A program made the translations under genes and the position numbers. The notes beneath the pieces were generated by a model that was not told the origin of the DNA, ran no database searches, and was given only the letters and a program-made list of their open reading frames with translations. From Cladochytrium replicatum (taxonomy: Eukaryota > Chytridiomycota > Chytridiomycetes > Cladochytriales > Cladochytriaceae): DNA of 64,000 nucleotides. The stretch spans positions 347,234-411,233 of the forward strand of contig JAHLKD010000038.1 of NCBI GenBank assembly GCA_025526935.1. The letters run 5' to 3'. Numbering within the stretch: the first letter of the stretch is position 1; each line of letters begins with the position of its first letter. Below are positions 13,996 to 49,927 of the stretch, in pieces.

Positions 13996-14650
13996 CTTTC
14001 TGTCCACGCGGACACTTTCCAAGAAGACGCAATATAAGTTTTGTATGTATCAAACAATTTTGCATCACAACGGACATCGAGGCATGTATTTTCTGTCCAC
14101 CCGGACACTTTCTCAACTCATTGACGTACTTCAGTTATCTCTACCCAATACAACTAACCTCTCTATCAATGTTACTAGCAATAAGATTCTGTCCACCCGG
14201 ACACTTTCTTAACTCATTGACGGTACTTGAGTGATCTCTATCAAGTACAACTAACATCTCTATCAATGTTACTAGCAATAAAATTATGTCCACCCGGACA
14301 CTTTCTCAACTCATTGACGGTACTTCAGTGATCTCTATCAAGTACAGCTAACCTCTCTATCAATGTTACTAGCAATAAGATTCTGTCCACCCGGACACTT
14401 TCTTAACTCATTGACGGTACTTGAGTGATCTCTATCAAGTACAAACTAACATCTCTATCAATGTTACTAGCAATAAGATTCTGTCCACCCGGACACTTTC
14501 TCAACTCATTGACGTACTTCAGTTATCTCTACCCAATACAGCTAACCTCTCTATCAATGTTACTAGCAATACGATTCTGTCCACCCGGACACTTTCTCAA
14601 CTCATTGACGTACTTCAGTTATCTCTACCCAATACAGCTAACCTCTCTAT
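13996..14650 (+). repeat. ~97-bp repeat array, left arm
   Basis: About seven tandem units of roughly 97 bp. Each starts ctgtccacccggacacttt, followed by ctcaactcattgacg and later ctatcaatgttactagcaat. Some units carry ttaactc for tcaactc, so sub-types exist. The array resumes at 15787 after the nested retroelement. Confidence 0.9.
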
Positions 14651-18507: not shown

Positions 18508-20215
18508 AAGTACCGTCCAGGAGTTGAGAAAGCGACCGCCTGGACAGAATCCTATTACAAGTAGTATTTGTAGAGAGGTTGGTTGTACTTGATCGAGATC
18601 AGTGAAGTATCAGTGAAGTACCGTCAATGAGTTGAGAAAGTGTCCGGGTGGACAGAATCTTATTGCTAGTAACATTATTAGAGAGGTTAGCTGTACTTGA
18701 TAGAGATCACTGAAGTACCGTCAATGAGTTGAGAAAGTGTCCGGGTGGACAGAATCCTATTGCTAGTAACATTGATAGAGAGGTTAGTTGTATTGGGTAG
18801 AGATCACTGAAGTACCGTCAATGAGTTGAGAAAGTGTCCGGGTGGACAGAATCCTATTGCTAGTAGTATTTGTAGAGAGGTTAGCTGTACCTGATAGAGA
18901 TTACTGAAGTACCGTCAATGAGTTGAGAAAGTGTCCGGGTGGACAGAATCGTATTGCTAGTAACATTGATAGAGAGGTTAGCTGTATTGGGTAGAGATAA
19001 CTGAAGTACGTCAATGAGTTGAGAAAGTGTCCGGGTGGACAGAATCTTATTGCTAGTAACATTGATAGAGATGTTAGTTTGTACTTGATAGAGATCACTC
19101 AAGTACCGTCAATGAGTTAAGAAAGTGTCCGGGTGGACAGAATCTTATTGCTAGTAACATTGATAGAGAGGTTAGCTGTACTTGATAGAGATCACTGAAG
19201 TACCGTCAATGAGTTGAGAAAGTGTCCGGGTGGACATAATTTTATTGCTAGTAACATTGATAGAGATGTTAGTTGTACTTGATAGAGATCACTCAAGTAC
19301 CGTCAATGAGTTAAGAAAGTGTCCGGGTGGACAGAATCTTATTGCTAGTAACATTGATAGAGAGGTTAGCTGTACTTGATAGAGATCACTGAAGTACCGT
19401 CAATGAGTTGAGAAAGTGTCCGGGTGGACATAATTTTATTGCTAGTAACATTGATAGAGATGTTAGTTGTACTTGATAGAGATCACTCAAGTACCGTCAA
19501 TGAGTTAAGAAAGTGTCCGGGTGGACAGAATCTTATTGCTAGTAACATTGATAGAGAGGTTAGTTGTATTGGGTAGAGATCACTGAAGTACGTCAATGAG
19601 TTGAGAAAGTGTCCGGGTGGACAGAATCGTATTGCTAGTAACATTGATAGAGAGGTTAGTTGTATTGGGTAGAGATCACTGAAGTACCGTAAATGAGTTG
19701 AGAAAGTGTCCGGGTGGACAGAATCCTATTGCTAGTAGTATTTGTAGAGAGGTTAGCTGTACCTGATAGAGATTACTGAAGTACCGTCAATGAGTTGAGA
19801 AAGTGTCCGGGTGGACAGAATCGTATTGCTAGTAACATTGATAGAGAGGTTAGTTGTATTGGGTAGAGATCACTGAAGTACCGTCAATGAGTTGAGAAAG
19901 TGTCCGGGTGGACAGAATCGTATTGCTAGTAACATTGATAGAGAGGTTAGTTGTATTGGGTAGAGATCACTGAAGTACCGTAAATGAGTTGAGAAAGTGT
20001 CCGGGTGGACAGAATCGTATTGCTAGTAACATTGATAGAGAGGTTAGTTGTATTGGGTAGAGATCACTGAAGTACCGTCAATGAGTTGAGAAAGTGTCCG
20101 GGTGGACAGAATCCTATTGCTAGTAGTATTTGTAGAGAGGTTAGCTGTACCTGATAGAGATTACTGAAGTACCGTCAATGAGTTGAGAAAGTGTCCGGGT
20201 GGACAGAAATCTGGG
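18508..20215 (-). repeat. ~97-bp repeat array, right arm (inverted)
   Basis: About 17 tandem units of the same repeat as the left arm but reverse-complemented (gtgtccgggtggacagaatc). Transposase is thus bracketed by a long inverted repeat. Unit sub-types (gatcactgaagtacc, gattactgaagtacc, tattgggtagag) recur in blocks, suggesting growth by unequal exchange of multi-unit segments. Confidence 0.92.
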
Positions 20216-20247
20216 AGACTGAGTGTCACTGTGTCTGTCTGGGTAGA

Positions 20248-20487
20248 ATAGGATTCTGTCCCCCCGGACACTTTCTCAACTCATTGACGGTACTTCAGTA
20301 ATTTCTATCAGGTACAGCTAACCTCTCTATTAATGTTACTAGCAATAAGATTCTGTCCACCCGGACACTTTCTCAACTCATTTACGGTACTTCAGTGATC
20401 TCTATCAAGTACAGCTAACCTCTCTATCAATTTTACTAGCAATAAGATTCTGTCCACCCGGACAGAATCCTCTCTATCAATGTTACT
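20248..20487 (+). repeat. Forward-facing mini-array
   Basis: About 2.5 units in the left-arm orientation, placed between the inverted array and ORF2. In the related copy (48.9 kb) the flanking sequences gtctgggtaga and agtttcttccctagc are directly adjacent, so this segment was inserted here. Confidence 0.8.
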
Positions 20488-23924: not shown

Positions 23925-24306
23925 TTCTCAAAGTTCACAGACACATTATCCATCTCAAGAGTATCGCATAATTGCCTCAGAGCAGGCCCAGACCGTAACC
24001 ACCACCAATAACCAAGTGACGGAACGTAAATGTAGCAGATACCATTGACTGATGCAACAAATCTCTTATTGTACATCAGGTCCTTAATGACAGGTATCCT
24101 TGTCACTAACAAGCATTGATAGAGGTCCTGATAGTGGGAATGCATCCTTTCGAAAATCTCGATATCATATCACTTTGAAGTTGAGATTCTGGAGTCTAAG
24201 GCTGCTGAGCGGGTCCCCCATGATGCCGTGATGCTCTCATACGTCTCAAGTAACATTAAAGATAACACAAAACCTCCCTTCCGTGCGCCACACTACCCAG
24301 GTTGCA

Positions 24307-24899
24307 ATGTTTGTTTTCGCTTCAAAACGAGTATTAAAGCACGGCCTGGCACTTGTCACAAAGGGTTACGCAGCCCAAGCTGGGCGAAATGCGAGACTGA
24401 TTCAAACGGGACAAAACTTCACCCCAGACGATGTGGACCGAATAAGGGAGCAGGCTGAGAAGCTGCGACGGGAGCAGCCAGAGACCTTCAAAAAGATCGA
24501 GCAGCTCGGGAGGGATCCTGAGCTCATGGCGGAAGTTGCGGAGCTCATGCAGTCGATACAGGCGAAAGGGTTCGTGAACGTATCGGCAGATGGTTCACCA
24601 TCTTGGTCCAACATCTTGAAGGTATCGGAAAGCTTAATGACTCTCTCGAATGATATTCTAACCATGGTGTAACTTTCCTTTCATTTTTCGGGTTTGCTTT
24701 TACCACCTTCCTCCAGATGGTTGGGGACAAAGACGTTCGCAGCAAGCTTGTTTCCTTGACAGAATTGATGCGTGCGAAGGGAGTAGATCCAGCTGCATTT
24801 GCTGGTTCGCAAGGAGCCTCTGGGGACAGCTCACCGCAATCAGGGAAGGGTTCGATGCTGGATAGCCTGAAGACATTGCTTGGCGGAAAGGGAAACTGA
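24307..24899 (+). CDS. Small protein with likely mitochondrial presequence
   Basis: Two exons, 24307-24621 and 24717-24899, join in phase across a 95-nt intron with GTATCG donor and CCTCCAG acceptor, giving 165 aa. The N terminus (MFVFASKRVLKHGLALVTKG) is basic, hydroxylated and free of acidic residues, as in mitochondrial targeting signals. The body is helical and charged: FTPDDVDRIREQAEKLRREQ, then ELMAEVAELMQSIQAKGFVN. Exon 2 gives DVRSKLVSLTELMRAKG and a Gly/Ser-rich end (LKTLLGGKGN). I do not recognise a family. The ATG at 24307 was preferred to the one at 24283 because it starts the presequence. Confidence 0.6.
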
Positions 24900-25054
24900 G
24901 CAAAATGTAAACATCACATTGCTTAAACTTTGTGTAAACAGAGCGGAGGTTCTAATCGAGTCCGAAGCGGTAAACTTTTTCTGGTCTGTCACTACACTCC
25001 CCATGGCTTTGACGTTTCCTTCCTTTCTGACCACGTGTGACTCGTCAAGCCCGG

Positions 25055-25718
25055 TCCATGTTGAAAGACTGCACGGGGGTGAATGCATTGTACTTTCCAA
25101 GCACACAGCTTATTATGGTGTTTGTCGGCGAAGACACCCCACAGCGAATGCCATCGCCCTACGCCGCACCATTTCTTCCGCCCTATCCAGTAACTGCCAG
25201 AGCGTCTCCTTCCACGGCGGAGATAGCATCAACGTCCGAGTACTCGCTAGAACCACTCACAGAACTACTCGTTGGAGATGGACTTGCGTCGAGTATGCGC
25301 ATACCTGACGGCATCCCCGTTTGTGTGATGTCTCCTTTCGGTAGACAACCACCCAGCAACTTCACACGTTGCCACGGTCGACGAACACCGCAAGAGCGAT
25401 ATCATATTTCAGCATTCAACATTGCACGGCTACCCCCAGTTCTACGTGCTACTATCGCCATCCCCTTCCTGCTCGTCGTAGTTCCATGTCTACTTCTACC
25501 ATTTGGTTTGTTGGCGTTGTGATATCCCCAAATGTCTACCTACCCTTTTTCTTGCACGTAGTCGCAGTTTTATGCTTAAGTGTAATCGCACATGTCCACG
25601 CGCTCTGGATCTTTGCGATAGCTGCAACTTCCGCAACCGTCCACTTTGTTCGCAGGGGATTATCTTTCGCCACCTGCCCACTTCTATTTCGCTGCTGCCG
25701 AACGCCACGATCTGACCT
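25055..25718 (+). CDS. Possible small membrane protein, Cys-rich tail
   Basis: From about 25055 a frame is open to 25522. It encodes a Pro/Ser-rich segment followed by one strong hydrophobic helix (ATIAIPFLLVVVPCLLLPFG). A GTGATA donor near 25519 and a GTAG acceptor near 25562 would join in phase to a Cys-rich end (KCNRTCPRALDLCDSCNFRN) and a stop at about 25715. A competing frame (25369-25965) is also open, with YFLGMLMAAKQIEHSNIDLE near its end, so the 3' structure is unresolved. No family is recognised. The helix and Cys pattern are observed; the gene model is tentative. Confidence 0.35.
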
Positions 25719-25965
25719 CTCTCCGGCATATCTTTCTTCTCCGATCTATCCCAAGTTTGTCATTTTCGACGATAGTCCTCCGCTCAGCCATGTAGTGGTA
25801 CGAATGCTTTGGGCTCTGGCGACGCTTTCGCGACCATCTCCTGCCTTTGCAGAGCGATACTTTCTTGGCATGCTGATGGCAGCAAAGCAAATAGAGCACT
25901 CAAACATCGACCTGGAACGAAATGATCCGGTTATCGCGGCCGATGTGCACTGTCACTTTCGATAG

Positions 25966-26503
25966 ATTGCAATCAAACGGTGGCGGCAATGCATATTAGC
26001 TGTGAATGCACCTCAGGGAATGCTTACACACTAAAGCTTATTATAATATCTTTTATTTAAATTGACTGTTAGAAGAAGATTTTAGCTTGCATTTTTTTTC
26101 TTGTTGATGGTGCAATTTCAGATTCGGACAATTATCACATGGCTGGTGAAGGTTTCATGCGAAATAAGGTCGAGCACCCTCGCATTATTTGTGGTCGAAA
26201 ATGATGGTTTATGCGCTGCGCAGGGATATGAATGATCACCAACATGTGCGAATGCCACACAGCACAACGACGTGAGCAAGTTTTGCTGGGGTGGTTTGAC
26301 CGGTCGTCAAGCACCACGCTATAAATTCCCCCCCAACGAAACAATTCGCACAAATTTGATGCACGTTTAGTCACGTGACTCCATGTGAAATGCACGCGGT
26401 GCAGGATTGATGCTTCGCCACGATCAGTCAGGCCGATGGCCTTAAAGCCCGAACCCCTTTCCCCACACAGTGTTGAAACACACTCCACTCCTCCACCAGC
26501 GCT
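25966..26503. promoter_or_regulatory. Upstream region of xylose isomerase gene
   Basis: 538 bp with no supported gene; the open minus-strand frame across it is the antisense shadow of exon 1. It contains a perfect 12-bp E-box palindrome AGTCACGTGACT at 26369-26380, the consensus for bHLH factors such as Cbf1/USF, and a TATA-like TATAAATT at 26320-26327. Confidence 0.5.
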
Positions 26504-28160
26504 ATGACCGTGAAAGAATTCTTCGCGTCCGCAAAGCAGATCGAGTACAAAGGTCCCAGCAGCGAAGACCCTCTCTCCTACCGTTGGTACAACAAGGATG
26601 AAGTTATTCTCGGCAAGAAGGTATAGATCTAGTGAGTAATGCATGTGTGCAAACCTGAATGCTATCGCAAAAGATGTCGGAATGGCTAAAGTTCTCTGTG
26701 TGCTACTGGCACACGTTCCGCGGAACCGGTCTTGATCCCTTTGGAACTCACACGCTCGACCGTCCGTGGTACTCGATCGACCGCACCGATATTCCATACG
26801 CAGAGATCGTCGAGTACTGCAAGGCTCGCGTCGACGCCGCTTTCGAGTTCTTCACCAAGCTCGGGGTGGAGTACTACACTTTCCACGACCGCGATGTGTC
26901 ACCTGAGCTCGCAACTCTCGCTGAGACCAACCAGTATGTTTATATTCTCACTTCTTTTTTTGGCTAAGTATTGAATGTCAGGCTGCTGGACGAGGTTACG
27001 GACTACATGCTCAAGAAGCAGGAGGCGACTGGTGTGAAACTTCTCTGGGGCACGGCCAACTTGTTCTCTGCACCCCGATTCGCCCAGGGTGCCGGAACTT
27101 CGTGCGAATTCGACGTGTACGCCACTGCCGCTGCTCAGGTCAAGAAAGCGATGGACGTAACGCACAAGGTACGGCGGCTCTGTGTCCATCTTCAGACGTC
27201 TTCTAACTGAACAACTTAGCTTGGTGGTTCCGCTTACATTTTCTGGGGAGGTCGTGAAGGTTACGCTTCCCTCTTGAACACCAACGTCCGAAAGGAGCTG
27301 GACAACATGGCTGCCCTGTTCAAGATGGCTGTAGCCTACAAGGAGAAGATTGGAGCTACCTTCACCTTCATGATCGAGCCTAAACCCCGTGAGCCAATGA
27401 AGCACCAGTACGACTACGACGCGCAGACTGTGATTGGGTTCTTGAAGACCTACGGTCTCGACAAGGACTTCAAGCTCAACATCGAGCCTAACCACACCAC
27501 TCTTGCTGGTCACGAGTACGTTCACGACATCTTGGTTTCGGCTGAGTACGACTTCTGTACGTACATATATGATGTTTTGTTTTCGCTCATTTAACCTGTC
27601 TTTTCTTTCCTCATTCAGTGGGTTCTATCGACTGTAACACCGGAGACCCATTGGTCGGCTGGGACACTGACCAGTTCTTGATGAATGACCGTGACGCAAC
27701 TCTCGTTATGATGGTTGTGTTGAAAATGGGAGGTTTCACCGCGGGTGGTCTCAACTTTGACTGCAAAGTTCGCCGCGAGTCAACCGACTTGGAAGGTGAG
27801 CCAAATCACCATTGATTCTTGATTGTACGTATTGCTGACCTCTCCATTTTTGCAGACATGTTCATTTCACACATTGGTTCGATGGACTGCTTTGCAAAGG
27901 GTTTGCGCATGGCGGCTCACATTCAGAGCCGCGGACGCCTCGCTGGTCTGCTTGAGCAGCGATACGCGTCGTGGACAGGTGCTGACGCGAAGGGTGTTGT
28001 CGGTGGAGCAGCCACTTTCGAAGAGCTCGAGCAGTACGTTCTTGGGTTGGGAGCTAAGCTCCAGACTGTACGTGCCAGGTCTGGCAAACAGGAATTGTTT
28101 GAGCGAGTGTTCGCGGATGAGTGCGACTCTGCGCTGATTGAGGTCGCGAAGAAGCATTAA
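26504..28160 (+). CDS. xylA: Xylose isomerase (EC 5.3.1.5)
   Basis: Six exons (26504-26620, 26674-26933, 26982-27168, 27220-27556, 27619-27795, 27856-28160) join in phase to 460 aa, the usual size for the long form. The enzyme converts D-xylose to D-xylulose with two divalent metals. Family signatures are present: substrate-binding [13 protein letters not shown], catalytic His in [27 protein letters not shown], metal-ligand Glu/His in [17 protein letters not shown] and [14 protein letters not shown], Asp ligands in [10 protein letters not shown] and GWDTDQF, then [12 protein letters not shown]. Most fungi use xylose reductase plus xylitol dehydrogenase. Isomerases are known from anaerobic chytrids such as Piromyces and a few others. 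The introns show this is a settled nuclear gene, not bacterial contamination. Confidence 0.97.
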
Positions 28161-28374
28161 GAGTAGTTATGAACCAGCGTGGTAGTCGGTCTTCTTTGTA
28201 TGTACCAGTAATGCTAATATGATGTGAAAAGAATCATGCACAACACCTGGTTGGTCCCTTTTGTGTGTCTCATTGGTCCTGATTTGGCTGGTAATTAAAC
28301 GCGTCCCGCTCAACTGAACGTGTCTCTCCTTCGCCGGTCTCTGCTCCGCGAAACGACCCCACCACGGCCAAACT

Positions 28375-28380
28375 TATAAA
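28375..28380 (+). promoter_or_regulatory. TATA-like box before the WSC-oxidase gene
   Basis: TATAAA, 47 bp upstream of the ATG at 28427, in a 266-bp intergenic gap. It would imply a short 5' leader. Confidence 0.4.
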
Positions 28381-28426
28381 GCGGATCTTGTCTCAGATCA
28401 TTGGTCTCTCTATCAATATATTCCTT

Positions 28427-31400
28427 ATGGCTAGTGTGGCCGTATCGCTGGCTGTGTTGCTGTCCGTAGACTCGGCTTTGTCCCTGGTGCACGAATCGGC
28501 AATAGAGGTAACTGCTGATCTTCGATTTCATGTACTGCAGATACTCACTGCATATTGCATTCAGATTAATCATGGCTCCTTACTCGACAAACGTGCTCTA
28601 ACTCCGTCTCTTTACTCATCGGTCGGATGTTATACAGAGGGCAACGGGGGTCGTGCCCTCACCCTCTCGTCCTTCTTCAATACAAATTCCATGACGGTTA
28701 CATCCTGCATCGCCTTCTGCTCCAATTCGAACTACGTGTTGGCGGGATTGGAATACGCCCAGGAATGCTATTGTGGGAACAATCTTAAGAACAACGCTAC
28801 AGTTGCGCCAGCAGGTGATTGCAACATGGCTTGCAATGGAAACCTAGCTCAGACTTGTGGAAGTAGCAAACGTCTTTCGATTTGGTCGTACAACGGCGCG
28901 ACGCCGGTCCCTGCCCCGATCCCGTCGGTTAACAAGACAAAAGTCTTTGCTGGCGGGTTTACATACAAGGGCTGCTTTCAGGACAACGTTCCAAATTACG
29001 GAAAGACGTTGGCTGGTGCCAAAGTTGCGGATGACACCATGACGCAAGATTCTTGCATCAGCTTCTGCGATGGGAAAGGATATTCGTTTGCCGGTGTTGA
29101 ATATGGGAGGGAGTGTTCTGTAAGTGGAATCGATGGCGATCTACATTGTAATTAACTTGATCCTCTAAACATCTCAAAATTCAGTGCGGAAACTCATTCG
29201 CAACGACCGTCGCTGCCCCAGAATCCGATTGCTCGATGCAGTGTTTGGGTTCAGAGGCACAGCTCTGCGGTGCCGGAAATCGACTCAACATCTTTGGAAA
29301 GCAGAGCATTACCACTACGACGGCAACATCAACGACGACGACGACCACGACGACTACCAGGACGTCTGCAGCGGCAGTCACTACCAGTTCATCCTCTTTC
29401 GGTCCAAACTTCCAATATGTTGGATGCTACGCCGAAGGAACCACCGGTCGTGCTTTGAACAGAGACGCGACAACATCCAATGCGCTCACCCCGGCGGTTT
29501 GCATCAGCTACTGCAGCGGGAAAGGCTATTCCTTGGCCGGTTTGGAGTTCGGTGTCGAGTGCTGTACGTGATGTATCTTGGATCGAATAATGTCCTCGAA
29601 GCTGATCTGCGTCTTCCAAATCAGTTTGTGGAAATGACATCCGCAATCAAGGATCTGCGGCACCAGCGACCAATTGCTCAATGTCGTGCTCCGGCGACGC
29701 CACTCAAACTTGTGGTAACGGCGGACGCCTATCCGTCTGGTCGCTCAATGGCGCAACTCCAGTTATAGTACCCCCACCGACTGTTAAAACCAACAACTTG
29801 CCTGGATCTTGGTCTTACTCCGGTTGCTATGTTGATCCGGCCGCACCGCGTGCCCTGGGCGGCGAGATAACTGCTGGAACAATGACACCGGTCAAATGCA
29901 TCAACCTCTGCAATGGGAAAGGTTACAAGTTCGCAGGGATCGAGTACGGTAACGAATGTTACGTGAGTGGAAATGTTTGCACCGCAGAACTATGCTGACT
30001 GTTCATTTCGCTAGTAGTGCGGTTACACACTCACCACAGCGAAAGTTGCCGAGACTGATTGCAACACGTTCTGTACGAGCGACGAGTCCTACTTTTGCGG
30101 AGCTGGAAATCGACTCACAGTGTATGTGAATGGAGCTTTCGGGGTAACCACCACCACAACAACAACCACCGCGACAGCAGTTCCGCCTCCCATAGTTCAG
30201 ACCACTGGTTTGCCAAACGGCTGGGTGGTAAAGTTGTAGTTATGTTTCATTCACATGTAGTGCTCATTTTTTCCGTAGATTCTCGATTGCTACACTGATT
30301 ATCCCGGAACCAAAGTGCTCACAGGTGGTTCGACCACAAGTGCAACCATGACGCCAGGCTACTGTATCAACTACTGTGCTGGCCTTGGCCTTACTCTCGC
30401 AGGGTTGGAGAATGGGAACACTTGTCTCTGCGACACTGCAATCCGTAACAACCATGTTCGTGCGACTGGTTGTACAACGAGCTGTGCTGGGGCTGCCGGA
30501 ACAGTTTGCGGTGGTACGATGAAGGTTCTGATCTACAACTACACACTCTCTGCTCCACCGACGGCAACATCCCCGATTCCTTCGCCCTCGCCGAGTCCCA
30601 TTCTCGGAATCAAAAAATCTGGCTTTGTGAAAGCGGGCGTTCAGTTCCTTGGGTGCTACCAGGAAAACGGCAACCGCGCACTGCCAGCGTTCGTCAAAGA
30701 TAACGTCCCCATAACCGTCGACAGCTGCATCGATATCTGCCAGACTGCGGGTTACCGACTCGCTGGGATGGAGTTCTCTAAGGAGTGCTGGTGTGACAAT
30801 GCAATTGCGTCCGTTGCAACCCTCACGACTTGGCAAGCCGACTCGCAATGCAACATGCCGTGCACTGGTGACCAGTACCAGGTCTGTGGTGACGCGAGTC
30901 GTATTACCATATACAACAACACCCAGTTCACACCTACTGCACCTCCTGGTGGTGGAGGGGCGGGTGGCGGCGGAGGAGCCTTGACACAAGTATCGCCAAA
31001 GTTCACTATTTCGGGAGGGAAGAATTACTCTTGGGTCGGATGCTATACCGAGGGCCAGGGCGTTTATGGACGTGCTTTGCAAGGCTCGCAATCGATATTG
31101 AACAACCAGACTGTGTACTCTTGTGGAACTTACTGCGTTGCTCAGAACTTCACCTTGTTTGGCGTAGAATATGGGGTGAGTGAAAATCTTTTCCGACAAT
31201 ACTACCTGGACTATGTCTGAATCCTTATATGTAGGTCGAGTGCTACTGCGGAAATATTCTCATCAACGGTCCCGCTCCCGTTCCATCTCTTGATGGCTGC
31301 ATGATGCCCTGTGGTGGAAATGCATCCCAAACCTGCGGTGGAGGACAAAAGCTTCAGATCTATTCCCTTAATGGACAGGCTCCGGCGGTTCGACCTGTGC

Positions 31401-33552
31401 CAGTCGTGCTTACTAAGGATCTACCTGATAAGTGGTACTATGCCGGATGCTGGCACGACACTGTCAACGGACCCAACAAGGCCGTGCCGTTCAAGAGTGT
31501 GTTCAATGGAAACATGACTGTTCTGAACTGCATCGATCATTGTCAGCTCTTCGGATACGCCGTTGCCGCGGCTCAATACGGCGACGAGTGCTGGTGCGGA
31601 GACCGGATCTCTCCGGATGCCGCGCAAGTTGCAGAGATTGTAAGTTGGGGGCGATGCGAAGAAACGAAGGAATGCATCGTGATCTGAATTTTCTCAAAAA
31701 GCAATGTACCACCCCTTGCTCGGGCAACACACTCGAGCTGTGCGGTGCAGGTGCAATCTCTAACATCTACGTCCACAATGGAAGTCTCTTCGAATGGCAG
31801 ACTCCGACGGTGACTGGCCGGTACGAGCAATTCATGGGGGGAGTCGATGTCCCGCTTCTTGCTGGTGTCGCCCCGTACAACAACAAGGTTGTTTTCCTTG
31901 CTCGATTGGCTGGAGGACAGCCAAACACTACCCATGCTTACGAGTTCGACTGGAAGAATCGGAATTACAGGACCGCTTTCCGTGAAATGGTGAGCTTACG
32001 ACATGATAGGAAGATCTGGTGTACTAATCACCCATTCCAGCACATTAAAACCGACATTTTCTGTGCTGCTGGAAACATATTGCCTGACAGCATCGGGCGA
32101 TTCCTTGCAGTTGCAGGTTGGGCGGATGAAGCGCTACAAGGAGTACGTGTGTACAAACCGACTGGACAGCACTTTGTGAACGGCACTACCGACTGGGAAG
32201 AGAACCCGCCAGCGCTGCATTTGAAGGTCGCGCGATGGTACCCGACCACCGCGACACTCACAAACGGCTCAATCATCGTCGTCGGAGGATCTGCGGCCGC
32301 GAACACACCTAACCAGCCATCCGTCGAAATTCTTCCAAATCCAGCAAACTCTGGGCCAACACCTCTAGAACTTCCGCTTCTCGTGCAAACAGATGGCCAT
32401 AACCTGTACTGTGGAGTATACGTGCTTCCGAACACCGGCGCATTGTTCATTTTCGCTGGAGAGCGTGCTCAGCTCCTCAGACAGACCGACTTTAGCATCC
32501 AGCGTGAACTCCCCATCTGCCCGAACGGCGTGCTGCGAGAGGGCTACAGAACATACCCGTTCACTGGATCGTACGCTCTTTTGCCCATGACAGCACCAGC
32601 CTATCGTCCGGAGTTTTTGGTATGCGGGGGAGGAATTGGCGGAGGCGGGAAGGCACACAACACTTGTGCGCGGATCGGACCGGAGGACACTAATCCAACA
32701 TGGATCGTTGAGCGCATGGCACGTGAAATGGTTTTTCATCGTTCCAGATATATTGAATGAATCATTTTACAGCCTTTCGATCGAGTCATGCCGAACATGG
32801 TCCAGTTGCCGGACGGAACGTACCTCATCGTCAATGGAGCTGCGGAGGGTGTTGCAGGTTTCGGATTAGCAAAGAAGCCAGTGCTCACCGCCATCCTGTA
32901 CGATCCTGCTGCAGTCGTTCACAAGCGAATTTCGATTCTCAATACGACTGTCGTTGCACGAATGTACCATTCAGGTGATGTTCCATGATGAAAGCAAACG
33001 ATCAACTTATACTCAAATTTTAGAATAGAGGCGACCCTTCTTCCTGACGGAACGGTTTTGATCAGTGGGTCGGATCCGGCAGACAACGACTTCCCCGAGG
33101 AGTACCGTCTCGAAATATACGTCCCGCCATACATTGCAAACAATCCGCCTCGACCCACGTTCACCCTTGCAAACGGTGCTTCCCGGGACCTCGCGTACGG
33201 ACAAGGGCTTGCTTTGACCGTCGTGGCACGCACCACGAACAAACCCATCCGTGTTTCGTTCATGCGTGACGGTGTCAACACCCACTCCACCCACATGGAT
33301 CAACGCTTTATCTGGCTTGACATTACCATCGGGCCTACTAGCCAAACAGGAAGCGGAACGTACACTGTGCGCATGCCGCCGAACGGAAAAGTCGCTCCGC
33401 CAGGATGGTACCAGATCTGGGTCTTGGAAGGCCCGACTCCGTGCCAAGAACATACTTGGGTTCGAATTGGAGGTGATCCGTCTTCGCTGTACGGATGGCC
33501 GAGCGTCCCTGGTTACAACCTCACTGGACTCGGTCAGACCGTGACATGGTAG
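28427..33552 (+). CDS. Secreted glyoxal oxidase with eight WSC domains
   Basis: Eleven exons (28427-28507, 28565-29119, 29185-29563, 29625-29962, 30018-30224, 30279-31175, 31235-31639, 31702-31989, 32041-32730, 32773-32974, 33029-33552) join in phase to 1,521 aa. A signal peptide (ASVAVSLAVLLSVDSALS) comes first. Eight Cys-rich WSC domains follow, each starting like GCYTEG...GRAL and holding CYCGN/CWCDN; these bind wall polysaccharide. A Thr-rich linker (about residues 330-355) separates WSC2 and WSC3. The C-terminal ~640 residues are a radical copper oxidase of the AA5_1/glyoxal oxidase class: cross-link Cys in DIFCAAGN, Tyr in VARWYPTT, Tyr-His pair in ARMYHS, last His in HSTHMDQRF. It oxidises small aldehydes to acids, making H2O2 at the cell surface. 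Copper is required, and a putative copper transporter gene lies 523 bp downstream. Confidence 0.93.
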
Positions 33553-34075
33553 ACCGAAAAACCATGAAATAGCCCCTTTATGCTTTTCGAGACCGATCAT
33601 TATCATCCCCATTTGCCACAATCACCCACCACCTATTTTGGTTATTTTTTTGATGCCATGTGAGTTTGGTAGCTTTTCGTTCCCCCCTTTGTTATTTAGA
33701 CTTTTTACGCCTTGCATGCATCCTAAATTACTCATTATCACAGCTGCGGATAGCCCATCGCCCGGTCTCACCACTCCCGCTTGTTTCTCTTATGCGGTGC
33801 GCCTTGTCTTTTGCAGTTCCTCGTTTTTACATCAGTTTCCCCGATAGATGGAGATGTCTCAAAACAGGAACATTCGTCGGTTCACACCCGTTCATTTTCC
33901 AATTTAGTTCTATGTGAGGTAACAAGAAACGCGGATACCCAAAATACAGTCAGTACAGGCTCTTTGAGATTTGAACTCGTTCGCAGTTGTGAATCTCCAA
34001 TCGAAGGTGAAAACTTTCCGTGCAAAATTTTGGGGCTTTGGGAAATAAAGTTGCGACAGGGTGGCTTGAAGTTCA
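33553..34075. other. Intergenic region between copper-linked genes
   Basis: 523 bp, AT- and pyrimidine-rich, with no supported gene. It must hold the terminator of the oxidase gene and the promoter of the DOMON-Ctr gene. I saw no clear copper-response motif. Confidence 0.5.
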
Positions 34076-35381
34076 ATGATGCTTCCCCAGACGATCCTGG
34101 CGTTCGTGGCCGTCGCGGCAACGGCTGCTGCTCATCCACTCTCTTTGACTGTAGAATATTCTCCGTTGAGGGGACTTTATTGCTCGGCTGGAAAGGACCC
34201 ATTTTGCTGTGCAGTCTGGGCGGCACCAACTGCCACCCGCGTCTCGTTTCACCTTGAAGGCCCATCGAGTGCTGGATGGATTGCGGTTGGTCTCGGAATG
34301 TCCATGGTGAACGCGGATATTATGGTACGGAAATAAGTCGCATCCCATGAATACTACTTGACAGTGGGTTTTCTCAAACTAATAGGCGTCATGGCGCAAT
34401 CTGGAATCGGGGAACATGATTCTGTTTGATTATTTTTCAACGGACGCGGCTCAGCCTATGGTCGATAACATGCAGGACCTTACGCTTATTGGAGGGGGCG
34501 ACGTGGATGGAAAAAAGAGGACCTCAGTGTTGTTCACGAGACCACGCGTCACGAACGACACGGCTTCAGATATTCAGATTCCGACGGGACCCAATGCAGT
34601 CGTAAATCTCATCTGGGCCCTTGGCGTCGCAGTACCGACAGCGGGAGACTCACAACTGCCCAAACATTCGAGCGCCGGAGTATTTGCGCTCACATTGGCA
34701 CCATCGGACCCTGCCACCGGATCTTCAACGCTCTTGGATATCTGGATGGCGCGTATGGGCGGCGAATCGATGGAATCGACATCTTCGATGAACATGCGAC
34801 CTTCAGTGTTGCCGCCTTTCCTCGCTGTCCTGTTCTCTGGGGTTCCCGCGGATCCCTCCCGCATCCCACTCTACGTAATCAGCGTTGTCTCGCTTCTTCT
34901 CGTCGGATGCATCGTCGAGGCGCTCGCAACTGTTCGCCCCATCCTCGAGCACGCTGTCACGCCAAAGGGTAATAGTACTACCCCTCGCACCACCGCCGCC
35001 CAATGGACGCTTCCCACGTACCTCGTAGGCGGCACGGTCCGCTTTGTCGAGATTGCGCTGACGTACACGATGATGCTCGTCGTGATGTCGTTCGACCCAG
35101 TCGTTTTCGTCGCTGTGATCGCGTCGTGGACGATTGGTTACATTGTGTTCACACCCATACGGATGCGCAGGAAGAAGGCCAGCGGAGCTGGTGGCGGTGG
35201 CGGTGCTGGAGACGATGTTGGGGAGAGGATGCAGAGGGGGAGGGGCGGGAAGAAGTGGGAGAAGTTGGGGTCGAGCGCGAGCGGCGGATTGGACCATGGT
35301 GACGGCGTCGAGGAGGAGGAGGAAGAGGAGGAGGTCGAGACTTTGGTTAGGAAATCTGAGCAGACGCTGCATCAATGTTAA
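34076..35381 (+). CDS. DOMON domain fused to Ctr-type copper transporter
   Basis: Two exons, 34076-34324 and 34386-35381, join in phase to 414 aa. A signal peptide (ILAFVAVAATAAA) leaves a mature protein starting HPLSL. Residues about 30-205 form a DOMON domain: WIAVGLGMSMVNADIMASW, then LFDYFSTDA, then LIWALGVAVP, then PKHSSAGVFAL. The Met in GLGMSM and the His in PKHSS sit where haem-binding DOMONs place their axial ligands. A Met-rich stretch follows (WMARMGGESMESTSSMNM), then three helices: PLYVISVVSLLLVGCIVEAL, then VEIALTYTMMLVVMSFDP with the Ctr MxxxM selectivity motif (MLVVM), then VVFVAVIASWTIGYIVF, where SxxxG replaces GxxxG. The tail is Gly-rich, then acidic, ending LHQC. Ctr trimers import Cu(I). 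A fused haem domain could reduce Cu(II) at the surface; that is inference. Confidence 0.85.
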
Positions 35382-35869: not shown

Positions 35870-36690
35870 ACGGAACGTATCTGGTTGATTTGTGTTGTCC
35901 AAACCCTGTAATGGAACAGCCGAATAATTGTTTTAGCCGCAGCTGTCCTACATCTTGATTGAATGGCAGTGGATTTTCGCACACATTTGCTTATTGAACC
36001 CACACCCATTCGGCTGCCTGTTGTATGCTTGTCAGCGCATTATTGATGTCAGCCAACTCTGTCATTGACTCTCTTGGTGCACGCCCCCGGTCGCCATGCT
36101 TTAACGGTGTTCTCACTCCAGATCACATATGCATCACCGGAAAGGCTGTATCGGTGGCAACAGTATATACTGCCTGGCTGGCACGGTATATACTGCCTGG
36201 CTGGCACGGTATATACTGCCTGGCTGGCACGGTATATACTGCCTGGCTGGCACGGTATATACTGCCTGGCTGGCACGGTATATACTGCCTGGCAGAGTCT
36301 TTCTGTTTGGGTTGGTAATGGGATCGTGTACATCCAGTATTTGATAAAAGAACGTTTGTCTCATTTCGGAATCATTCCAAGTGCCCAGACAGTTGTGACG
36401 GCCCCAAACAATTGTTCCATCTGCACCAAAACAGAATGTGCCGGCTACTTTGACACTATGGAGCCAACCGCTGTAAAATGCCATTTGCTTCTTGGGTAGG
36501 GTCAGTTCTTGTACCATTGTAAGTTGTAGTTCTTTCCATCAATGAAGCCCCACACGTTGCACCAACCTCCTCTGTTGTTCATGAGCTGGCTATGAAACTG
36601 GTGCAGCAGGGAGATCAAGCAAAGCTTGAAAGAGGTATCATTCCACCCTGCGGATGGTTTGCAAGAATTGAGCTGGCGATATACCAAACA
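35870..36690 (-). pseudogene. DDE_Tnp_4 (PIF/Harbinger-like) transposase remnant
   Basis: Minus-strand pieces in several frames keep the order of a DDE_Tnp_4 nuclease. They are CNVWGFIDGKNYNL (first Asp), FYSGWLHSVKVAGTFCFGAD, GTIVWGRHNCLGTWNDSEM, then DTAFPV (second Asp), ALTSIQQAAEWVW (Glu), and a terminal PLPFNQDVGQLRLKQLF. Frameshifts, stops and a six-copy 23-bp repeat (36163-36293) in the loop before DTAFPV show it is dead. The upstream N-terminal part and the ends of the element were not identified. Confidence 0.72.
36163..36293. repeat. 23-bp minisatellite, six copies
   Basis: Six near-perfect copies of tatatactgcctggctggca plus cgg. They lie inside the DDE_Tnp_4 remnant and break its frame. 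Confidence 0.95.
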
Positions 36691-48908: not shown

Positions 48909-49329
48909 AGATTCTGTCCACCCGGACACTTTCTCAACTTATTAACGGTACTTCAGTAATTTCTATTCAGGTACAGCTAACCTCTCTACAAATACTACTA
49001 GCAATAGGATTCTGTCCACCCAGACTTCTCAACTCATTCACTGTACTTCAGTTATCTCTACCCAATACAACTAACCTCTCTATCAATGTTACTAGCAATA
49101 AGATTCTGTCCACCCGGACACTTTCTCACCTCATTGACAGTACTTCAGTTATCTCTACCCCAATACAACTAACCTCTCTATCAATGTTACTAGCAATAGA
49201 ATTCTGTCCACCCAGACTTCTCAACTCATTGACGGTACTCACTTATCTCTACCCGATACAACTAACCTCTCTATCAATGTTACTAGCAATAAGATTCTGT
49301 CCACCCGGACACTTTCTCACCTCATTGAC
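48909..49329 (+). repeat. ~97-bp repeat array, second element
   Basis: About four units of ctgtccacccggacacttt type. Some are shortened to cacccagacttctcaactc, a sub-type not seen in the first element. Confidence 0.88.
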
Positions 49330-49927
49330 GTGCACCAAAGACTCTTTGTGAGGCTATATCACAATCCGATGAGGCTCCATCCTGGTTAGCGGCGATGAAG
49401 GAGGAAGTCACACAATTAGTCGGCAACAATACTTGGGCCGAAACGTTTTTACTTGATGGACGGAATTCATTATCGGGCAAATGGGTTTTCACATATAAGC
49501 TTGACGAACATGGCAATATTACTCGATTCAAAGCACGTTGGGTCGTACGAGGATTATCACAGATTGAAGGATTGGATTTCGATGAGACCTATTCTCCGGT
49601 TACGAAAACGTTCACGATCTGTTTTCTGATTGCATTAGCAGCATAAGTCGGCATGGTCATATTCCAGTTTGATATCAAGGGTGCATATCTCAAGGCGATA
49701 CTGGAAGAAGAGAACTACGTCAAACTCCCTCATGGTTTTGGACGAGTAGACTTCCGGAATCGACCCATCGTCTGCAGACTTATCAAAAGTCTGTACGGTC
49801 TACACCAGGCAGCTCGAGAATGGTACAAAACTCTTTGGAAACAATATCTTAGTGTTGGTTTCGTGCGGAATATTGCAGACATCTGTCATTTCTTGCGATA
49901 CAATCCAACAAATAATCTTACAAAATA
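49330..49927 (+). pseudogene. Copia integrase-RT fragment
   Basis: Plus-strand coding remnant: MKEEVTQLVGNNTWAETFLL, ARWVVRGLSQIEGLDFDETY, FQFDIKGAYLKAILEEENYV and AAREWYKTLWKQYLS. It carries a stop in the middle (about 49645) and ends before the YVDD-type motif. It is the inverse of the same region in the full element at 56.6-59.4 kb. Confidence 0.88.

Follow-up and report, generated by a model that had tools for sequence, protein, structure and literature searches.

A DOMON domain joined to a Ctr-type copper channel in the chytrid Cladochytrium replicatum

Gene structure of the DOMON–Ctr fusion

The window, a 64,000-nucleotide stretch of the Cladochytrium replicatum genome (Chytridiomycota, Cladochytriales), carries on its forward strand a two-exon gene (34076..34324 and 34386..35381) whose 414-residue product is deposited as 'hypothetical protein' (P0001). 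The model was obtained by a donor/acceptor scan with reading of the frames, and P0001 is letter-for-letter identical to it, which bears out the single intron and the span 34076..35381 proposed in the first-pass annotation. Three donor/acceptor pairs sharing one acceptor opened a frame longer than 400 residues; only the donor at 34325 left the DOMON motif whole, and this donor yields P0001. Exon 2 alone is a single open frame of 331 residues that holds the second half of the DOMON together with the entire Ctr core, and therefore no splice error joined two genes. Both Pfam families exceeded their curated cut-offs on the spliced protein and five fusion loci were found in the genome, confirming the DOMON–Ctr fusion that had been proposed. 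The gene is laid out as follows.

34076..34324, forward strand: exon 1, codons 1–83, ATG at 34076; deposited protein identical
34076..34132, forward strand: signal peptide, residues 1–19 (hydropathy, by eye); the mature chain may begin HPLSL
34181..34700, forward strand: DOMON / CDH-cyt-like domain, residues 36–188, split by the intron (PF03351, PF16010)
34304..34306, forward strand: Met77, aligned with haem ligand Met65 of Phanerochaete CDH (PcCDH)
34325..34385, forward strand: intron, 61 nt, GT..AG, phase 0
34386..35381, forward strand: exon 2, with the DOMON second half, linker, Met segment, Ctr core and tail; the stop codon ends at 35381
34665..34667, forward strand: His177, aligned with haem ligand His163 of PcCDH
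34743..34796, forward strand: Met-rich segment WMARMGGESMESTSSMNM, residues 203–220
34869..34925, forward strand: TM1, residues 245–263 (hydropathy; invariant Glu261, Arg267)
35043..35093, forward strand: TM2, residues 303–319 (PF04145), containing MxxxM
35073..35087, forward strand: MLVVM, the MxxxM Cu(I) filter motif, residues 313–317
35103..35159, forward strand: TM3, residues 323–341, with SWTIG (330–334) replacing GxxxG, x12 after MxxxM
35169..35378, forward strand: tail, probably cytosolic from the predicted topology, Gly-, Lys/Arg- and Glu-rich, ending HQC

The proposed signal peptide agrees with the hydrophobic residues 1–19, and hydropathy revealed a hydrophobic N terminus in all five paralogues. 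The suggestion that the N-terminal His of the mature chain is a copper ligand did not survive: the cleavage site was judged by eye and the chain starts with His in two of five paralogues only, which excludes such a residue as a general copper ligand of the family.

Five fusion loci and selection on the joined protein

A profile search of the genome (50.5 Mb, 198 contigs) returned 12 Ctr places, all above cut-off, and, at E ≤ 0.001, 19 CDH-cyt places and 21 DOMON places, the latter not all above cut-off. DOMON–Ctr fusions occupy five loci on five contigs, C38 (the window), C14, C35, C40 and C52, each of which matches all three families (DOMON, CDH-cyt and Ctr) at E ≤ 0.01. C14 is 77% identical to the window protein, C52 37%, C40 35% and C35 32%. 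Since C38/C14 and C40/C52 sit in duplicated blocks, the five loci amount to about three lineages. In every model a single open exon extends from the later portion of the DOMON to the Ctr core inclusive, and a phase-0 intron falls at the same DOMON site, after D-[IL]-[MQ]; C40 and C52 have one extra intron each. For C38, C14 and C35, the deposited proteins P0001–P0003 are identical to the models. The deposited C52 model (P0004, 298 aa) starts partway through the DOMON, much of which it omits, and carries a Ctr name only, and word-based protein searches gave no full-length C40 protein among the matches listed. NCBIfam, a prokaryotic library, expectedly matched none of the five members, and neither Cytochrom_B561 (E ≤ 0.01) nor Ferric_reduct (PF01794) with FAD/NADPH domains was matched in these proteins. 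As for the other seven Ctr places, judged by eye, four have Cys-rich ectodomains (in a neighbouring frame at two of them), two are short and one is interrupted.

We then estimated dN/dS by the Nei–Gojobori method for four genes, C38/C14 and C40/C52, at a dS of about 0.66–0.70. The ratios for DOMON, linker and Ctr TMs were 0.19, 0.18 and 0.16 in the first pair and 0.066, 0.067 and 0.064 in the second, with looser values in the signal peptide (0.33 and 0.23) and the tail (1.15 and 0.43). Both domains and their join are thus under purifying selection in C38, C14, C40 and C52.

The Ctr-domain tree comprised 14 rows, namely 11 of the 12 Ctr places of the genome (C93 was excluded for its interrupted frame) and P0005–P0007. 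A branch of modest support (76/76) set the five DOMON–Ctrs apart from the other rows; they formed one branch in 74% of bootstrap trees, the C35 branch being long. This tree is consistent with a single fusion event and is not strong proof of one. In the DOMON tree, the fusion DOMONs separated from four stand-alone DOMONs at 100/99. This tree says little about origin, because only four of 13 loci passed a motif filter that required Met and not His; the four all have His, and their Met is a product of the filter and no evidence.

The ectodomain resembles CDH cytochromes at the haem-ligand positions

The window protein matched Pfam DOMON (PF03351) at residues 52–162 with 50.8 bits (curated cut-off 32.7) and CDH-cyt (PF16010) at 59–188 with 34.6 bits (cut-off 27). 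DOMON / CDH-cytochrome domains of this kind go under the name AA8. Cys36 and Cys44 of this region are kept in all five paralogues. The placing of a Met and a His at haem-ligand positions was upheld: counted along the alignment of a profile made from the five DOMON–Ctr rows, Met77 and His177 fall on Met65 and His163, which the accessible text of PMC11112829 gives as the haem-coordinating residues of CDH. With the DOMON part of this profile, the best solved match was 6jt6 (E 5.5e-6), deposited as an extracellular PQQ-dependent sugar dehydrogenase. The CDH cytochrome entries 1d7c and 1d7b reached E values of 0.12–0.13, weak alone, with the haem ligands in register, and entry 1pl3 has His at the Met65 position. 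Judging by these ligand positions, the window DOMON is predicted to bind haem.

The Met/His pair is present in four of the five fusions (C38, C14, C40 and C52). The fifth, C35 (locus L040, C35:187500-192500), has His at the Met position and, depending on the alignment, Thr or Arg at the His position, and carries a His/Asp-rich linker of about 90 residues. C52 (L045, C52:249500-254000) lacks VGW, three core DOMON codons at a splice junction; with three core residues missing, the Trp of VGW among them, its DOMON is a putative fold only. C35 provides a natural DOMON–Ctr counterpart without haem ligands. Elsewhere in the genome, L018, L020 and L023 are stand-alone DOMONs with Met/His, whose hydrophobic C terminus resembles a GPI signal by eye.

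A divergent Ctr core with the filter methionines

MxxxM-x12-GxxxG is stated as the Ctr motif in the available part of PMC3103425. In salmon Ctr1, according to the accessible text of PMC6437178, the two MxxxM methionines form the Cu(I) selectivity filter, and substituting either abolishes copper transport. MxxxM is kept in all five DOMON–Ctrs, as is the x12 spacing to [GS]xxxG; the TM3 motif is SxxxG in C38 and C14 and an exact GxxxG in C40, C52 and C35. The channel part of the five-row profile found the Ctr1 chimera 6m97 (E 2.6e-5).

The proposed three-helix Ctr core holds in its MLVVM motif and in its Pfam Ctr match (PF04145, residues 278–338, 32.3 bits, curated cut-off 25.3), and is qualified by a match that spans TM2–TM3 only and by the SxxxG in TM3. 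TM1 of the window copy is backed by hydropathy, which shows TM1 plus a TM2–TM3 pair, and by alignment to the paralogues; the N terminus would be extracellular. In C40 and C52 the match runs along the entire Ctr profile, and the deposited C52 protein P0004 scores 76 bits. The LFxxW stretch ahead of TM1 is degraded in the window copy, which by its residues is a divergent type of Ctr among the family. The Met-rich segment noted earlier is present at residues 203–220, and its Met218, ahead of TM1, is invariant in a six-row alignment of P0001–P0004, Nowakowskiella P0005 and the jgi 'copper transporter 1' P0006.

Comparison with known proteins and distribution

The DOMON–Ctr proteins share with the Ctr/COPT/SLC31 family (PF04145) the three-TM core, MxxxM-x12-[G/S]xxxG and a Met segment before TM1, but have a DOMON of about 150 residues ahead of that segment and, in the window copy, SxxxG. 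With the DOMON / CDH-cytochrome domains (PF03351, PF16010) they share the HMM family and the Met/His positions; in CDH, however, the DOMON is fused to a flavin dehydrogenase, whereas here it is fused to a metal channel. The four stand-alone DOMON relatives, unlike the fusions, seemingly end in a C-terminal anchor signal (by eye). CYBDOM proteins (DOMON plus b561, such as Arabidopsis HYP1) likewise place an extracellular DOMON on a membrane protein, but have their own transmembrane electron path, which DOMON–Ctr lacks. The DOMON–ferric reductases reported in Naegleria and oomycetes also have an outward-facing DOMON on a membrane protein of metal uptake; there it sits on a reductase, here on an importer. 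An extra ectodomain on a Ctr core is reported for the green-algal Cys-Met Ctrs (Chlamydomonas CTR1/CTR2), in which it is cysteine-rich, unlike a DOMON; judged by eye, similar Cys-rich Ctrs are present both in this genome and in Nowakowskiella. Cbi1/Bim1 of Cryptococcus is, to our knowledge, not a DOMON. It resembles the present case as an extracellular protein that assists copper uptake by Ctr1, but is, as described in the accessible part of PMC9258870, a separate copper-binding protein and not a fused domain.

In word-based protein searches of limited sensitivity, no DOMON–Ctr from outside C. replicatum was among the matches listed. Such searches need shared exact words, and this absence is therefore weak evidence that other fungi lack the fusion. 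The other proteins among the matches listed, P0005–P0007, are Ctrs with Cys-rich N-terminal parts, in which no DOMON was matched. The first-pass annotation knew of no described protein with this pairing, and in the open literature on DOMON with Ctr, copper or chytrids, which leaves subscription journals largely uncovered, no DOMON–Ctr fusion was described among the titles and abstract openings listed. A DOMON would be a new ectodomain for a Ctr; the Ctr and DOMON families themselves were already known.

Genomic neighbourhood

Directly upstream of the window gene lie frames of the copper radical oxidase type.

28295..33552, forward strand: WSC repeats, then a glyoxal oxidase N domain and a GO-like E-set

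Four frames in this interval hold nine matched WSC stretches (2+3+2+2), some of which may be halves of a single domain. Related WSC/glyoxal oxidase frames lie upstream of C14 too. The interval 24000–34000 of the window is collinear with C14:195500-205400 as diverged copies, and the C40 and C52 flanks are likewise collinear with each other, hinting at large-scale duplication. The glyoxal-oxidase neighbourhood, being one duplicated block, is a single observation and may be without meaning. On its downstream side the window gene has a PAPS-reductase-like frame and another that carries flavodoxin, PFOR_II and NIR_SIR_ferr domains; in the 10 kb downstream, BLAST matched no frame to the C14 flank.

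A possible haem relay at the channel mouth

As stated in the accessible text of PMC6981102, a fungal Ctr takes up Cu(I) once plasma-membrane reductases have reduced Cu(II). We infer for DOMON–Ctr a plasma-membrane location, a trimeric state, haem occupancy and Cu(I) transport. The protein would then be a Ctr-type copper importer of the plasma membrane. Its ectodomain would be a DOMON with b-type haem, of the CDH cytochrome type and attached some 30 residues away from Met218 and the pore, and a channel trimer would hold three such DOMONs at its mouth. A donor, which could be an FRE-type protein, one of the genome's DOMON–b561 proteins or an extracellular reductant, would reduce the DOMON haem; the haem would pass single electrons to Cu(II) held at the Met-rich entrance, and the resulting Cu(I) would move through the MxM segment to the MxxxM filter. 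That electrons flow from haem to copper, and from which donor they come, is conjecture.

Several precedents have been reported. In the available text, CDH haem/cytochrome domains pass electrons to terminal acceptors (PMC11112829), DOMON–ferric reductase fusions occur in Naegleria and oomycetes (PMC3591440), and HYP1, which joins a DOMON to b561, acts as a reductase on ferric as well as cupric substrates (PMC10784544); the accessible part of the HYP1 study adds that its ligand mutants were mislocalised, so that the role of the DOMON haem was not testable there. The N terminus of human CTR1 is described as binding Cu(II) and Cu(I) and keeping the reduced state, with His-Met-Asp clusters, in the accessible portion of PMC8867124, which in 2022 called the route from Cu(II) to Cu(I) for mammalian Ctr unclear. 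Redox at a Ctr ectodomain is thus an older concept, and a haem-domain route would be new.

A donor is needed because Ctr and DOMON supply no electrons themselves, and the window protein has no electron-donor domain. The genome gave 14 Ferric_reduct matches, 13 of them above cut-off and some being pieces of one gene, and five Cytochrom_B561 matches; the frames C80 and C135 match both DOMON and b561. By these domain matches, the Ferric_reduct proteins and C80/C135 are possible donors. Given the Ferric_reduct and Cytochrom_B561 matches, the fusion does not replace separate reductases, and the idea of a fungus without them is out. Four patterns for a Mac1/Cuf1-type copper element gave no match in the 500 bases before the window ATG, where chytrid regulators may differ from those patterns; across all five promoters (500 bases each) the single match was in C40, to the loosest pattern and without a chance control.

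The idea of a one-protein reductase and importer accordingly stands in part: the fusion, the ligand positions and the filter methionines support it, but the protein would have to draw its electrons from elsewhere and separate reductases are present, which leaves the idea, as read from the residues, plausible but unproven. The arrangement suggests, without proving it, that the fungus captures and reduces copper directly at the entrance of the importing channel. A Ctr importer whose haem DOMON is the last relay, reducing Cu(II) at the pore mouth, is the reading to which we tentatively give most weight, somewhat short of an even chance. We are more doubtful of the narrower version, a single-polypeptide cupric-reductase-channel in which Cu(II) is reduced above the Met filter and Cu(I) is never released, with a DOMON–b561 or FRE-type partner giving the electrons. 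Against a relay, the C35 fusion persists without the Met/His pair, C52 lacks VGW, the window Ctr copy is divergent, separate FRE-type genes exist, the protein lacks an electron-donor domain and the copper-element patterns had no match before the window gene.

The persistence of C35, with its added His/Asp-rich linker, would fit a reading in which the fusion imports copper while the DOMON is simply a binding ectodomain for a cell-wall glycan, haem or copper-loaded ligand, docking the importer or concentrating copper near the pore without acting as a reductase. DOMONs are reported to bind haem or sugars in the accessible text of PMC3591440 and PMC10784544, and a copper shuttle from Cbi1 to Ctr1 is proposed for Cryptococcus in that of PMC9258870; moreover, other ectodomains stand beside Ctr at four of the 12 places in this genome and in P0005–P0007, all of them Cys-rich. 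Pure docking, however, needs no ligand pair, and Met/His is kept in four of five fusions, including C40 and C52, which are only 35–37% identical to the window protein. We consider docking a serious possibility, though we lean against it. The haem-ligand positions and membership in a haem-DOMON family would also suit a redox or copper sensor that gates the channel or triggers its turnover and is not the reductant of the transported ion. For hCTR1, endocytosis is described as being under the control of Cu(II)-to-Cu(I) reduction together with the coordination of Cu(I) by the ectodomain (PMC8867124, accessible text). Nothing in the sequence positively supports a sensor, however, and the two paralogue pairs have different C-terminal tails, so that we regard this as unlikely.

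We consider very unlikely an electron exchange between the haem DOMON and copper enzymes outside the cell, such as the neighbouring glyoxal-oxidase-type product or LPMOs, both secreted, with copper supply explaining the co-localisation. The CDH cytochrome mediates electrons and CDH acts with LPMOs, as the available part of PMC11112829 states, and both C38 and C14 have WSC/glyoxal oxidase frames immediately upstream; but these two form one duplicated block, and BLAST matched none of the frames in the 10 kb upstream of the window gene to the flanks of C40, C52 or C35. The deposited P0004, which begins inside the DOMON under a Ctr name only, speaks for an error of gene model or assembly wrongly joining a DOMON gene to a Ctr gene. 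Such an error is extremely improbable: in all five models, each on its own contig, one open exon reaches across the two domains, the intron site is common, and purifying selection covers the linker in two pairs. On the five loci, the single exon and this selection we reject a fusion by artefact.

The fusion adds a copper channel to the DOMON partners met here, namely flavin dehydrogenase, b561 and FRE, and a family with the ligand pair together with a member without it (C35) offers a ready comparison for the coupling of reduction to import.

Repeats in the window

Tandem arrays of a 97–98-bp unit, in both orientations, occupy 14091–14650, 18609–20208, 20247–20464 and 48909–49330 of the window. 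The unit has at least 234 matches across many contigs and is a genome-wide dispersed minisatellite. In addition, six near-perfect 23-bp copies (98% matches) lie at 36155–36293, about 770 bases downstream of the stop codon of the window gene.
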